A stretch of DNA of 64,000 nt from Acidimicrobiia bacterium (lineage in GTDB: Bacteria; Actinomycetota; Acidimicrobiia; IMCC26256; JAOSJL01). Positions within the stretch are counted from its first letter, which is position 1; every line of letters begins with the position of its first letter. Both the position numbers and the translations under genes were made by a program. The notes under the pieces are model-generated. The model ran no database searches and was not told the DNA's origin. It saw only the letters and a list, made by a program, of their open reading frames with translations. This document shows positions 55,699 to 59,713 of this stretch, piece after piece. The DNA lies in the NCBI GenBank assembly GCA_027494115.1, contig JAOSJL010000001.1:1451926-1515925 (forward strand). Reading direction: 5' to 3'.

Positions 55699-56397
55699 TC
55701 AGGCCGGGAGTCCGAGGCGCCGGTTCGTGGCGTCGAGGACGGCCCGTGCCAGCGCCTCGGCGTCGCGGTTGCTGTGCACGACTGCGGTTCCCACGAGCTG
55801 GTGCTCGGTGGGTGCGTCGAGGAGAGCGAGGGTCACGACGGCGACGTGCGTCCTGCCCACGGGTAGAACGTGAGCGGTGTCGACGGCCACGTCGCCGGCT
55901 CGCGGCGACAGGTGGCGCAGCGCACACAGCACCGCCTCGGCGACGATGCGACCGTGCGCCACCGACGCGATGGAACCCTCCGCCTCACCGTGTACCTGGG
56001 CCCCGGCTTCGCCGAGCACGACGGCGATTCGCGTGTGGGCCGTGTCGCTGTGCTCGTCGACGGACAGGAGAGCGGGCCGCCCGTATCCCGCGGTCTCCGG
56101 GGTGGTGGCCGGGACCTCGGGATCGGTCGGGTGATCCGGAGCCCGGGTCGCGCGAGCCCGTAGGTCGCGTTCCTCGAGCTGGACCACCGAGATCGTGCGC
56201 CGGTCGAGACGGAGCCCGAACGACGCCAGTGCGACCGACTCCACGTCACGCGCGACCTGCTTCGGAGGCTTTCCGGGCAGCGCCACGACGTGGATCTCGG
56301 CCACCCCGCCCGATGGCTTGGCCACAACCCGCGCGATCGAGACATCGGGAAGGCGCGCCAGTTCGCGCTCCAAGCCTTGAAGATCACGATCGTCCAC
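55699..56397 (-). CDS. Conserved protein of unknown function
   Basis: 232 aa from GTG 56397, with GGGAGG 7 nt upstream. The N-terminal half 'LERELARLPDVSIARVVAKP', 'GVAEIHVVALPGKPPKQVAR' and 'DVESVALASFGLRLDRRTIS' is a compact alpha/beta domain that I have seen in actinobacterial hypothetical proteins but cannot name. A Thr/Pro-rich linker (90-110) leads to a second domain 'TRIAVVLGEAGAQVHGEAEG' and 'HVAVVTLALLDAPTEHQLVG', repeating the first's strand pattern. No catalytic motif. Divergent from the HD-GYP region, 395 nt from the microprotein. Confidence 0.65.
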   Translation of the reverse strand: MDDRDLQGLERELARLPDVSIARVVAKPSGGVAEIHVVALPGKPPKQVARDVESVALASFGLRLDRRTISVVQLEERDLRARATRAPDHPTDPEVPATTPETAGYGRPALLSVDEHSDTAHTRIAVVLGEAGAQVHGEAEGSIASVAHGRIVAEAVLCALRHLSPRAGDVAVDTAHVLPVGRTHVAVVTLALLDAPTEHQLVGTAVVHSNRDAEALARAVLDATNRRLGLPA

Positions 56398-56519
56398 GCC
56401 GGCGCCTCCCAGGGGTGAACACTATGCGTGAGGAAGGCCATCCGGAAGATGTTCTGGCCGAAATTGGTACTTGTGTTGTTTGTGTTAATCAGTGAGACTG
56501 CTGTGATTCACGGTGGAAC

Positions 56520-56548
56520 CCCGGAACCGGACGAAAGCCCGGAACCGG
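56520..56548. repeat. 11-bp direct repeat, 18-bp period
   Basis: cccggaaccgg at 56520-56530 and again at 56538-56548. The unit is itself nearly palindromic (CCGGAACCGG has CCGG at both ends), so it may be a protein-binding half-site pair or part of a folded RNA. Confidence 0.7.
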
Positions 56549-56607
56549 TGACACCGCGAAGGTCCGGGTGTTCGGGGGCCCAGCGGGCGGATCCCCAGGG
56601 CCGAACA

Positions 56608-56625
56608 CCGGGTCGTGCGACCCGG
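56608..56625 (+). ncRNA. Leader hairpin H1 (CCGGGTC-GTGC-GACCCGG)
   Basis: A perfect 7-bp stem with a 4-nt loop. Its arms are complementary to the arms of hairpin H2, 117 nt downstream, so H1 and H2 are alternatives to a long-range pairing. Whether it is transcribed is not known. Confidence 0.4.
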
Positions 56626-56740
56626 CTTCGACAAACCCGACCGACGACCAAGGAGCACCACACGTTCGCCAGTCGGCCCCGGACCGGGTGCCGGCGGGAT
56701 CCCGCACGATCGGCCACTTCAGCGGAGCGGACTCACGTCC

Positions 56741-56759
56741 GGGACCCGGCACGGGTCTC
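56741..56759 (+). ncRNA. Leader hairpin H2 (GGGACCCG-GCA-CGGGTCTC)
   Basis: An 8-bp stem (one G-U) with a 3-nt loop, ending 20 nt before the AAGGAGG of the microprotein. The GACCCG and CGGGTC arms are the same as in H1 in reverse order, so formation of H1-H2 cross pairs could free or hide the ribosome-binding site. Confidence 0.4.
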
Positions 56760-56791
56760 GGATCGTCGATTCGCACGAAGGAGGGTGTGCG

Positions 56792-56887
56792 ATGGTGCAA
56801 ACCCTGTACGTCCGACTGACCGTCTATGCGACGGCTGCGACGGGGCTGCTCTTCGTGGGTGGCACACGCCGCGGCTTCTGGCACTAG
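56792..56887 (+). CDS. 31-aa membrane microprotein
   Basis: ATG 56792 to TAG 56887, below the size limit of the ORF track. A perfect AAGGAGG (56779-56785) lies 6 nt upstream of the ATG, the strongest Shine-Dalgarno in the window. The peptide has one short hydrophobic segment 'VYATAATGLLFVGG' between basic ends. It is placed between a folded leader and the HD-GYP gene 75 nt downstream, so it could be a leader peptide or a small partner of the HD-GYP protein. Function unknown. Confidence 0.5.
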   Translation: MVQTLYVRLTVYATAATGLLFVGGTRRGFWH

Positions 56888-56962
56888 AGCGGAGCGGATC
56901 GGCCCACGTCGGGGTCTCGCCTGCACACGGCCCGGCACCGCCGGCGTCGTGGCATCGACGAC

Positions 56963-58372
56963 ATGGTGAGGACGGACGCGACGACACACGCGACCAGGGG
57001 GTCGCGGCGATTCCACGCCTTCGGCATCGGCATCGGCTGCTCAGCCGTTGTCCTTGCGACCGTGCTGTGCGTGGTCGGGCGAGCTCCGGCGGTCGGCCCA
57101 CTCCTCGTCTTCGGTGGGCTGGTGGCCTTCGCGGAGAATCGGGGGGTCGAATTCCCCGATGGGACAACCCTGTCGGCGAGCAGCGTGCCGACGATGGCGG
57201 CGGTCGTGGTCTTCCACGCGCAGGGCGCTCCGGCGGGGGCGATGGTGGTGGCGATGTGCGGTGCCCTCTACCTGCCTGCACTGCGCGACCACGACATCGG
57301 CCGCGTGCTCTTCCACGCGGGAAGCTACGGCCTGGCGACACTGGTGGTGTCGCTGACCTTCGCCGGCCTGGCGGCCGTTGCCGACTCGACGGGCCTTGCT
57401 CTCCTCCTGATCACGCTCCCTGTGGCGCTCGTCGACCTCCTGGTGAACGACCTGCTCGTCGCCGTCGCGGTGGCGCTCTCGCGGGGGCGGACCGTCCTGT
57501 CCTCTCTCGCGCGGTTCCGCCCCGGCTCGTGGCAGGTCGTGCCTTTCACGCTGTTCGGGCTCGTGATGGGGACGGTCTGGGTCGAGTTCGGTGCCATCAC
57601 GCTTCCGTTGTTCATCGTGCCGGTCGTTGTCGCCCACCGCACCTTCCACGCCTATCAGGATCTGCACCGGGCGCATGAGGCCACCCTCGAGACGTTGCTG
57701 CGTGCACTGGAGGCCAAGGACGGCGGCACGGCGCGACACGTGCGACGGGTCGCGGCCTATGCGACGAGCATCGGGGAGGATCTCGGGCTGACCCCGGCCC
57801 GCCTCGAGCGACTGCGTTGCGCCGCTCTCATGCACGACGTGGGAAAGCTCGCTGTCCCGAGCGAGTTGCTCAACAAGCCCGGCCGTCTCACGCGGGCCGA
57901 ATTCGAACGGGTCCATCGCCACGAGGCCGTGTCGGTAGCCATTCTCGAACGGATCGACTTCCTGCGTGACATCGCGCCGAGCGCGGTGAGCGAGTACTCC
58001 CGCTACGACGGCACTGACCCACCGGACTCGCGCGGAGCCACGAGGGTTCTACGCACCCGGCGCACGCCGCTGGAGCCGCACATCGTCCACGTCGCCGATG
58101 CGTTCGACGCCATGACGTCGTCGCGGGCGTACCGGAGGGCGCTCGATCTCGACGTGGCACTCGACGAGCTCCGACGGTGCGCCGGCACGCAGTTCCACCC
58201 TCGCTGTGTGGAGGCGCTCGTTCGGGTCGTACAGGAGCAGGATCCGGTCGTCGATGTTCCGGGTGCCTCGTCGCCCGAGCTCTTCGCCGTCCCTCCCCCC
58301 GTCGTCGGCACCGGGTCGGCCGGCCTCGGGGATCTCGCCGACGCGCACGCGACGGGAACGGCCGGCGCGTGA
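56963..58372 (+). CDS. Integral membrane HD-GYP-type protein, GYP half degenerate
   Basis: 469 aa. Residues 1-225 hold about six membrane segments (MASE-like sensor), then a coiled linker 'RTFHAYQDLHRAHEATLETL' and the HD domain 'ALEAKDGGTARHVRRVAAYA', 'LRCAALMHDVGKLAVPSELL' (metal-binding His-Asp). Family HD-GYP proteins cleave cyclic di-GMP. Where they have HHExxxGxGYP this one reads 'VSEYSRYDGTDPPDSRGA', losing two metal-ligand His and the GYP triplet, while 'VADAFDAMTSSRAYRRAL' is normal. Activity is therefore doubtful; a signalling or binding role is possible. GTGA overlap with the next gene. Confidence 0.8.
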   Translation: MVRTDATTHATRGSRRFHAFGIGIGCSAVVLATVLCVVGRAPAVGPLLVFGGLVAFAENRGVEFPDGTTLSASSVPTMAAVVVFHAQGAPAGAMVVAMCGALYLPALRDHDIGRVLFHAGSYGLATLVVSLTFAGLAAVADSTGLALLLITLPVALVDLLVNDLLVAVAVALSRGRTVLSSLARFRPGSWQVVPFTLFGLVMGTVWVEFGAITLPLFIVPVVVAHRTFHAYQDLHRAHEATLETLLRALEAKDGGTARHVRRVAAYATSIGEDLGLTPARLERLRCAALMHDVGKLAVPSELLNKPGRLTRAEFERVHRHEAVSVAILERIDFLRDIAPSAVSEYSRYDGTDPPDSRGATRVLRTRRTPLEPHIVHVADAFDAMTSSRAYRRALDLDVALDELRRCAGTQFHPRCVEALVRVVQEQDPVVDVPGASSPELFAVPPPVVGTGSAGLGDLADAHATGTAGA

Positions 58373-59713
58373 GCCGAATGGTCCGAGCCGCGGTTCTCGC
58401 CGGGATCGGTGTGGGTGCACTCGCGATGGCGGTTATCGCCGGAGAAGGTGCCGATGTGGACGCCGTCGTGCTCGGCCTCGGCATCATGGCCGGAGAGGCC
58501 CTCGTCCTCCACCCCGCCGGCGGACCTCGGGTGCCGGCTTCGCACGCGGTCGTGCTCGTTGCCCTGCGCGTTCTTCCGTGGGCCACGTTGGTGATCGTCT
58601 GCGTCCTCGCGTTCACGCTTGCCGCGTGGGCCGCGGGCGGACTCAGGACACGCGGCGGCCGCTGGAACCTGGGCGTGCGGATCGGCACGGCGGTTGCCGC
58701 CGGGTGCGCCTACTACGCCGTTCTGGCTCTTGCTCCCGCTGAGACGACGCGATGGGTCCTCGCGGCCCTGAGTGCGGCGGCCGCATCCCAGATGGCGATC
58801 GATGAGCTCGTTGCCCGTCTCCGCCACGGTTTCCGTGGTTCCGGGAGGACACGGTCGACGCGCGGGCGACCGGAAGCCGTCGGTTCCCGCTCGCAGCTGT
58901 GGCCCCGTGGCCGCGCAGCGGCGTTGGCGGTAGCGAGCAGCGGCGTTCTGATGTCTCTGGTGTCGAGCGGTGCGGAAGGGCGCCCGGGCCCGGGTCGATG
59001 GAGCAGTGTGCTGCTGGCGGTGCCACTGGTCGCGGCGTGGGCGGCCGACAGCATGGCCCGACGCGCGCGCAGCAACTATCTCCAGACCATTGACGCGCTC
59101 GCGGCGACGCCTGAGCTGGGTGGCCATGTGCCGACGGGGGAGTACAGAACGAGTGGTGACGCTGTCGCGACAGGTCGGCGAATCACTGGATCTCGATCTA
59201 CGGGCCATGGAGGACCTGGAGGCCGCCGCACGTCTGCACCGACTCGGATCGGTGTGTCTGGCGCCCGCACCGGCGGGCTCTTCGACGCCGCGGCCCCGGA
59301 GATCGCGCTCGTGGATGGGCACCTCCGGTCACACGAGGGACAGCGAGTTGGCCCGGGTGGCCGACATGACCGCGCACATCCTCGCCGGCGGCGACCGCCT
59401 CGACCGCGTGGGCACCGTCGTGGCGGCGGCGGCTCGACCTCATCGCCGGACGCGGTCCTCGGAGAACGGTTCGCGGACATCGGAGGACACCGAACGGGCG
59501 GCCGAGCCTCCCGGCGCCGGTGTTCTGCGTGTGGTGAGTACGTACGAGGAACTGACCGGTGGCGACGACGGCCGGGCCGTTCTCGCACTCGAACGGATGT
59601 ACACGGGTCCCGCGTACATGTTCGATCCCGGTGCACTGGCAGCTCTCGAGATCGTGCTCTCGGACAGCGGCCTTCTGGACGCCGGCTCCCGGTCGGAAGA
59701 CGGCGAAGTGTGA
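58369..59713 (+). CDS. Second membrane HD-domain-like protein, degenerate (frameshifted)
   Basis: Starts at GTG 58369, overlapping the previous stop (GTGA). The first 250 aa are membrane segments and a long Arg/Ser-rich cytosolic loop. One surplus base in the G5 run at 59136-59140 shifts the frame; the corrected product continues 'STERVVTLSRQVGES' and 'LEAAARLHRLGSVCL', equivalent to the HD helix but with His-Arg for His-Asp. Later stretches switch between two plausible frames (59270, 59340, 59440), so more errors or real decay are likely. It ends 'YEELTGGDDGRAVLALERMY'. About 447 aa if whole. Probably a non-catalytic partner of the preceding protein. Confidence 0.6.

Follow-up and report, generated by a model that had tools for sequence, protein, structure and literature searches.

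A leader RNA predicted to enclose a microprotein gene upstream of membrane HD-GYP genes in Actinomycetota and Firmicutes

We found that the leader of a membrane HD-GYP-type gene in the window (the whole stretch of 64,000 nucleotides analyzed here) carries a predicted structured RNA which, judging from covariation and gene neighbourhood, is conserved across at least two bacterial phyla, Actinomycetota and Firmicutes. Its elements follow a conserved order: the 5' arm of a long-range stem (P1), the AGCGNAGCG motif, a hairpin (P3) with a UAGCGG-type loop, the Shine-Dalgarno sequence, a microprotein gene and the 3' arm of P1. As one P1 arm lies upstream of the microprotein ORF and the other downstream of its stop codon, the stem encloses the ORF. 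In the genomes compared, the module was rarely found anywhere but immediately upstream of a membrane HD-GYP gene, and a gene that we call U lies alongside. We give even weight to the view that this is a conserved cis-acting, ORF-containing leader that would control HD-GYP expression, with P1 as a conditional barrier. The initial annotation had proposed a switch-type RNA before the microprotein and the HD-GYP gene: a conserved and covarying structured leader is indeed present, and the exchange between two hairpins (H1 and H2) that was to drive the switch did not hold up. P1, the AGCGGAGCG element, the Shine-Dalgarno hairpin and the divergent gene U had been overlooked. The features of the window are as follows.

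55699..56397, minus strand: gene U, 232 aa, divergent, with a LeuA-regulatory-like C-terminal domain; conserved neighbour of the RNA
56471..56499, plus strand: promoter, -35 TTGTGT (56471-56476), 17-nt spacer, -10 GAGACT (56494-56499); pattern conserved in orthologues
56517-56530 and 56535-56548, plus strand: 18-bp-period repeat, two copies in the variable 5' leader, from a repeat search
56608-56625, plus strand: H1 hairpin CCGGGTC-GTGC-GACCCGG, outside the conserved RNA, at chance level
56674..56704, plus strand: P1 5' arm, 26 of 31 positions pairing with 56910-56940
56721..56729, plus strand: conserved element AGCGGAGCG, with AGCGNAGC(G) invariant in aligned relatives
56739..56761, plus strand: P3 hairpin (H2), 10 bp, loop GCA, core GACCCG (56743-56748) with CGGGTC (56752-56757); covaries in relatives
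56771..56792, plus strand: P4 hairpin UCGCACG-AAGGAGGG-UGUGCGA, 7 bp, Shine-Dalgarno in the loop, abutting the start codon; from the window fold
56778-56785, plus strand: Shine-Dalgarno AAGGAGGG, preceding the microprotein ORF
56792..56887, plus strand: microprotein MVQTLYVRLTVYATAATGLLFVGGTRRGFWH, 31 aa; conserved family members of 19-31 aa occupy this position in relatives
56888..56896, plus strand: another copy of AGCGGAGCG, immediately following the microprotein stop (direct repeat D1), read from the sequence
56910..56940, plus strand: P1 3' arm, pairing with 56674-56704
56963..58372, plus strand: membrane HD-GYP-type gene, 469 aa, PF13487 at E 7e-27

In a MAFFT alignment of 29 loci, two-sided changes were present in 24 of the 27 P1 pairs and 89.7% of the cells were paired; none of 500 shuffles reached any of these measures, and sliding the partner by one column lowered the pairing to 48%. 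RNAalifold predicted zero pairs on the MAFFT half-alignment, a shortcoming of that alignment. We also used an alignment-free test, in which the 5' region of each locus was compared with its own 3' region and with those of the other loci. Across 53 loci, the comparison of cognate with non-cognate arms gave z -19.3 and the control against the ORF was flat (z -1.2); with the 26 Firmicutes loci z was -8.2, again with a flat control. The P1 duplex of the window ranked second best among 53 partners. An A.C mismatch inside P1 is conserved in 18 of the 29 loci (columns 59/350 of alignment A1).

The length of P1 is 26-35 bp in most loci of the window's order and in GC-rich relatives; most AT-rich relatives have a shorter stem of 11-20 bp. 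The first set contained 12 relatives with GC below 0.51, and in every one of them a T-rich tract directly follows P1 (T fraction 0.50-0.88, against a background of 0.26-0.45), so that P1 there resembles an intrinsic terminator with the microprotein gene as its loop. The tract is absent from the window, from GC-rich relatives and from several Firmicutes (L190, L193, L206, and L207); termination therefore cannot be the universal output. The longer stems of the GC-rich relatives are of the duplex type cut by RNase III, and P1 could thus be a processing stem whose cleavage would free a stable RNA of about 250 nt acting on its own, with the conserved unpaired AGCGNAGCG and UAGCGG as candidate binding sites. 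We regard this as unlikely, given that the RNA is always single-copy and tied to the HD-GYP gene and that the P1 of most AT-rich relatives is short for RNase III.

If P1 is instead a conditional barrier, it would separate the HD-GYP gene from the promoter upstream (or from gene U). Its closure would reduce read-through into the HD-GYP gene, by intrinsic termination at the T-rich tract in AT-rich relatives; when the interior is occupied or refolded, P1 would fail and the HD-GYP gene would be expressed. Candidates for such an effect are ribosomes translating the microprotein and a factor bound at AGCGNAGCG/P3, for which protein U is one possibility. The microprotein might work as a sensor, since a nascent peptide this short would still be entirely inside the exit tunnel when the ribosome reaches the stop codon, or alternatively be a membrane partner made in proportion. 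Across loci, anything from 2 to over 30 nt separates the stop codon from the P1 3' arm, which counts against a mechanism based on an exact ribosome footprint. We saw no sign of c-di-GMP as the ligand, nor anything that bears on the nucleotide or ion suggested by the initial annotation. A more specific version, which we advance tentatively and at rather low confidence, is that of a new regulatory RNA class of Actinomycetota and Firmicutes, in which microprotein translation in the P1 loop would decide whether P1 closes as a terminator or barrier and so set the level of the membrane HD-GYP protein, with the LeuA-like U as sensor or RNA-binding partner.

Inside P1, the AGCGNAGC element lies 59-90 nt upstream of the microprotein start in relatives and 71 nt upstream in the window. 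Locus L020 also contains two copies of the conserved element, both upstream of the ORF. H2 proved to be a genuine hairpin, corresponding to P3 of the conserved RNA: the covariation of P3 gave z -11.2 in the 53-locus test and z -5.3 in Firmicutes, two-sided changes were found at all six pairs counted, and none of 500 shuffles reached the P3 score. Its apical loop, UAGCGG in relatives, is replaced in the window copy. The P4-type pairing, between the segment before the start codon and upstream sequence, covaries modestly (z about -3.9 across loci, -5.0 in Firmicutes) and is absent from some lineages, so sequestration of the Shine-Dalgarno is not universal. In some lineages P4 and P3 share sequence, and the two may be an alternative pairing other than that of H1 and H2. 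An extra helix between the end of AGCGNAGCG and the segment before the Shine-Dalgarno reached z -2.9 in Firmicutes and was absent elsewhere; we do not claim it.

This interior could also be read as a metabolite riboswitch, in which AGCGNAGCG and P3 would form the aptamer and P4/P1 the expression platform: conserved unpaired nucleotides sit beside covarying helices upstream of the Shine-Dalgarno, which is held in a hairpin in several lineages, including the window. With about 15-20 conserved nucleotides only, a single gene context, a Shine-Dalgarno hairpin missing from part of the lineages and no match to an Rfam aptamer, we judge this reading quite improbable.

The region between the promoter and P1 is of another kind. 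The generic sigma-70 scan on its own found nothing at the AT-rich patch that the initial annotation had described as promoter-like; the comparison of orthologous upstream regions, however, recovered the pattern GA[AG]ACT..TG[GT] in 16 out of 30, against 0.2 expected, and the patch (TTGTGT-17-GAGACT) is thus genuine. This conserved promoter of the window's order appears to feed the leader RNA, and from its position transcription is expected to start near 56506. Short TGTG-type repeats with a spacing of about 9 bp surround the conserved promoter in the upstream regions of the order (e.g. 56471-56512 in the window) and are possibly a regulator site. The 18-bp-period repeat is present in two copies, as had been noticed, and is absent from the relatives compared.

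H1 can be found where it had been placed; it is no better than chance, as 28% of dinucleotide shuffles yield a perfect 7-bp hairpin of this type, and its region varies in sequence and length among relatives. The folding energy of the 301-nt leader was slightly better than that of shuffles (z -2.0); since such single-sequence folding evidence is weak, relatives were needed to decide. The arms of H1 and H2 are interchangeable by sequence (GACCCG at 56619 and 56743, CGGGTC at 56609 and 56752), which is what had suggested a switch between them. H1 being at chance level in a variable region, this exchange is unsupported, and H2, conserved as P3, has no H1 partner in relatives; we consider the H1/H2 switch extremely improbable. 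Among relatives, the stem conservation that had been proposed as a check thus exists for H2/P3 and for P1, and is missing for H1. The places of the patch, the repeat, H1, H2, the Shine-Dalgarno and the 31-aa ORF had been given to within two bases.

The microprotein ORF and its Shine-Dalgarno, also recognized from the start, are genuine and conserved ahead of the HD-GYP gene in relatives. An ORF of 28-31 codons precedes that gene in 29 of the 30 orthologous loci of the order; as in a leader-peptide (uORF) arrangement, a conserved short ORF with a Shine-Dalgarno lies between the promoter and the candidate regulated gene. The order's sole locus without it is L013 (genome G024), whose sister genome has one (L010), and its absence reflects either loss or assembly collapse. 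The consensus in the order is M(K/R)xxxxR...ALLLAGGA...W(K/R), from which the family member in the window, MVQTLYVRLTVYATAATGLLFVGGTRRGFWH, diverges; the window microprotein matched nothing in Pfam or NCBIfam. Across phyla, the predicted membrane-type protein has a charged N-terminus, a hydrophobic core, a near-invariant (A/G/S)(G/S)A and a short aromatic/basic tail.

This conservation from N-terminus to tail argues for a functional product, as does the codon pattern: the second position is the best conserved, and 92% of pairs have pN<pS. The closed RNA would then mainly serve translation, stability or processing of the microprotein, which could be a partner of the HD-GYP protein in the membrane (the HD-GYP partners, which have an N-terminal membrane part, show 4-8 predicted membrane segments in most loci) or a precursor cut after GGA to give a W/K/R-rich peptide of 3-7 residues, which is as far as we take a peptide-pheromone reading. 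Conversely, the short Firmicutes variants L184, L186, L200, L201, and L208 lose most of the hydrophobic core and keep the RNA, the tail sequence is not conserved, and an unsystematic look noticed no conserved exporter or protease gene adjoining. We consider that a functional product is possible but doubtful as the main explanation of the closed RNA.

Full-length HD-GYP orthologues, mostly 40-48% identical, occur in most genomes of the window's order. In the window protein and its order HDxGK is kept and the HH/GYP motif is lost, so the window lacks the full motifs of an active HD-GYP c-di-GMP phosphodiesterase (HD plus HHExxDGxGYP); the HH/GYP motif is intact in many partners from Firmicutes and other Actinomycetota. 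Homologues of U adjoin the RNA in 88 loci, some of which overlap. In Firmicutes U still adjoins the RNA and reads in the same direction; its orientation relative to the HD-GYP gene differs between lineages. No NCBIfam match was found for U, and no Pfam match for the window U; PF08502 matches weakly in 4 of 14 members. A Foldseek comparison showed that the AlphaFold2 model of U (pLDDT 88.5) is similar to LeuA (E 6e-6), in agreement with the weak hits to the LeuA regulatory domain. A similarity of U to the PUR domain (TM about 0.2) was too weak for use.

A DNA-similarity search with the 565-nt leader returned short chance pieces only, so we found relatives by searching with the orthologous HD-GYP protein. 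We then used a covariance model of an 83-nt core, built without the window copy, which usually gave a single match per genome. With the limit set at E 0.01, matches were present in 38 of 297 Actinomycetota genomes and in 53 of 349 Firmicutes genomes. Among the top 30 Actinomycetota loci the HD-GYP gene adjoins 25, and the remaining five are weak matches; among the top 29 Firmicutes loci, HD-GYP and U occur together in 24, and U is present in another three, on contigs without a detectable HD-GYP gene. Taken on its own, the Firmicutes set also shows covariation of P1, of P3 and of P4. The share of sampled genomes in which we detected the module ranges from roughly 8% in Actinomycetota to at most 15% in Firmicutes. 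Matches L168, L170-L173, L180, L182, L183, L210, and L212 have no HD-GYP neighbour and were treated as chance. Manual reading added two probable members, one in an Eisenbacteria MAG (L047) and one in a genome labelled Acetobacteraceae (L089).

The window copy scored 14.4 bits (E 0.085) against the covariance model R2 and was outside the list of 11 matches from the whole-genome model search, the best of which had 15.2 bits. As sequence models fail to single it out, we assigned it by the joint presence of its neighbours (HD-GYP and U), the promoter, the AGCGGAGCG motif at its conserved spacing, P3, P1 round the ORF and the microprotein; on these combined features it appears to be a divergent member of the AGCGNAGCG leader RNA family.

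No Rfam family matched the RNA in the window or in any set of relatives tested. GEMM-I and GEMM-II, which like this RNA are tied to c-di-GMP-type genes, gave no covariance-model match in the window at the gathering threshold, in 56380-56980 at E up to 10, or in relatives; the earlier remark that the leader does not match the GEMM-I aptamer is borne out. The raiA RNA reached 17.8 bits at 56515-56581 against a gathering score of 101.3, with most of the model deleted, and was rejected. The open literature yielded no motif that combines these features with a link to HD-GYP genes; as one key collection was outside this scope, absence is probable and unproven. The RNA is thus probably previously unlisted and without an Rfam family.

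Some of its features recall known systems. In type I toxin mRNAs (AapA1, Hok), the mRNA of a small hydrophobic peptide is closed by long-distance 5'/3' pairing, and such end-to-end pairing round a hydrophobic-peptide mRNA is shared here; unlike them, this RNA is single-copy and keeps the same neighbours, HD-GYP and U, in different phyla, and no antisense RNA gene was identified by a promoter scan. Leader-peptide attenuators (TnaC, ErmC-type and ilvB-II, the last being a uORF of Corynebacterium; PMC10272879, PMC11109978) also have a short ORF in the structured 5' leader of one regulated gene and a terminator-like stem, seen here in AT-rich relatives. Their stem, however, follows the ORF, while P1 encloses the whole of it, and this RNA differs further in a peptide conserved across phyla, the separate element AGCGNAGCG and the lack of a codon run for a single amino acid. 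The odc1 motif, in the excerpted description, likewise orders a structured element, a conserved short ORF and the main ORF, and a stem holds its ribosome-binding site; its peptide has 11 aa, it is given there as restricted to alphaproteobacteria, and the excerpt describes no long-range stem enclosing the ORF (PMC8632094).

The module connects a very small conserved peptide with a signalling protein of the cyclic-dinucleotide type, and it allows the reason for a stem around an entire ORF to be tested. In the window's lineage, the RNA is still kept although the partner HD-GYP has no GYP motif. The HD-GYP gene of the window is followed by a second membrane gene (58375-59713), an apparent tandem HD-GYP-like paralogue, whose membrane part and degenerate HD part lie in different frames; the apparent frame change near 59140 is either an assembly error or decay.
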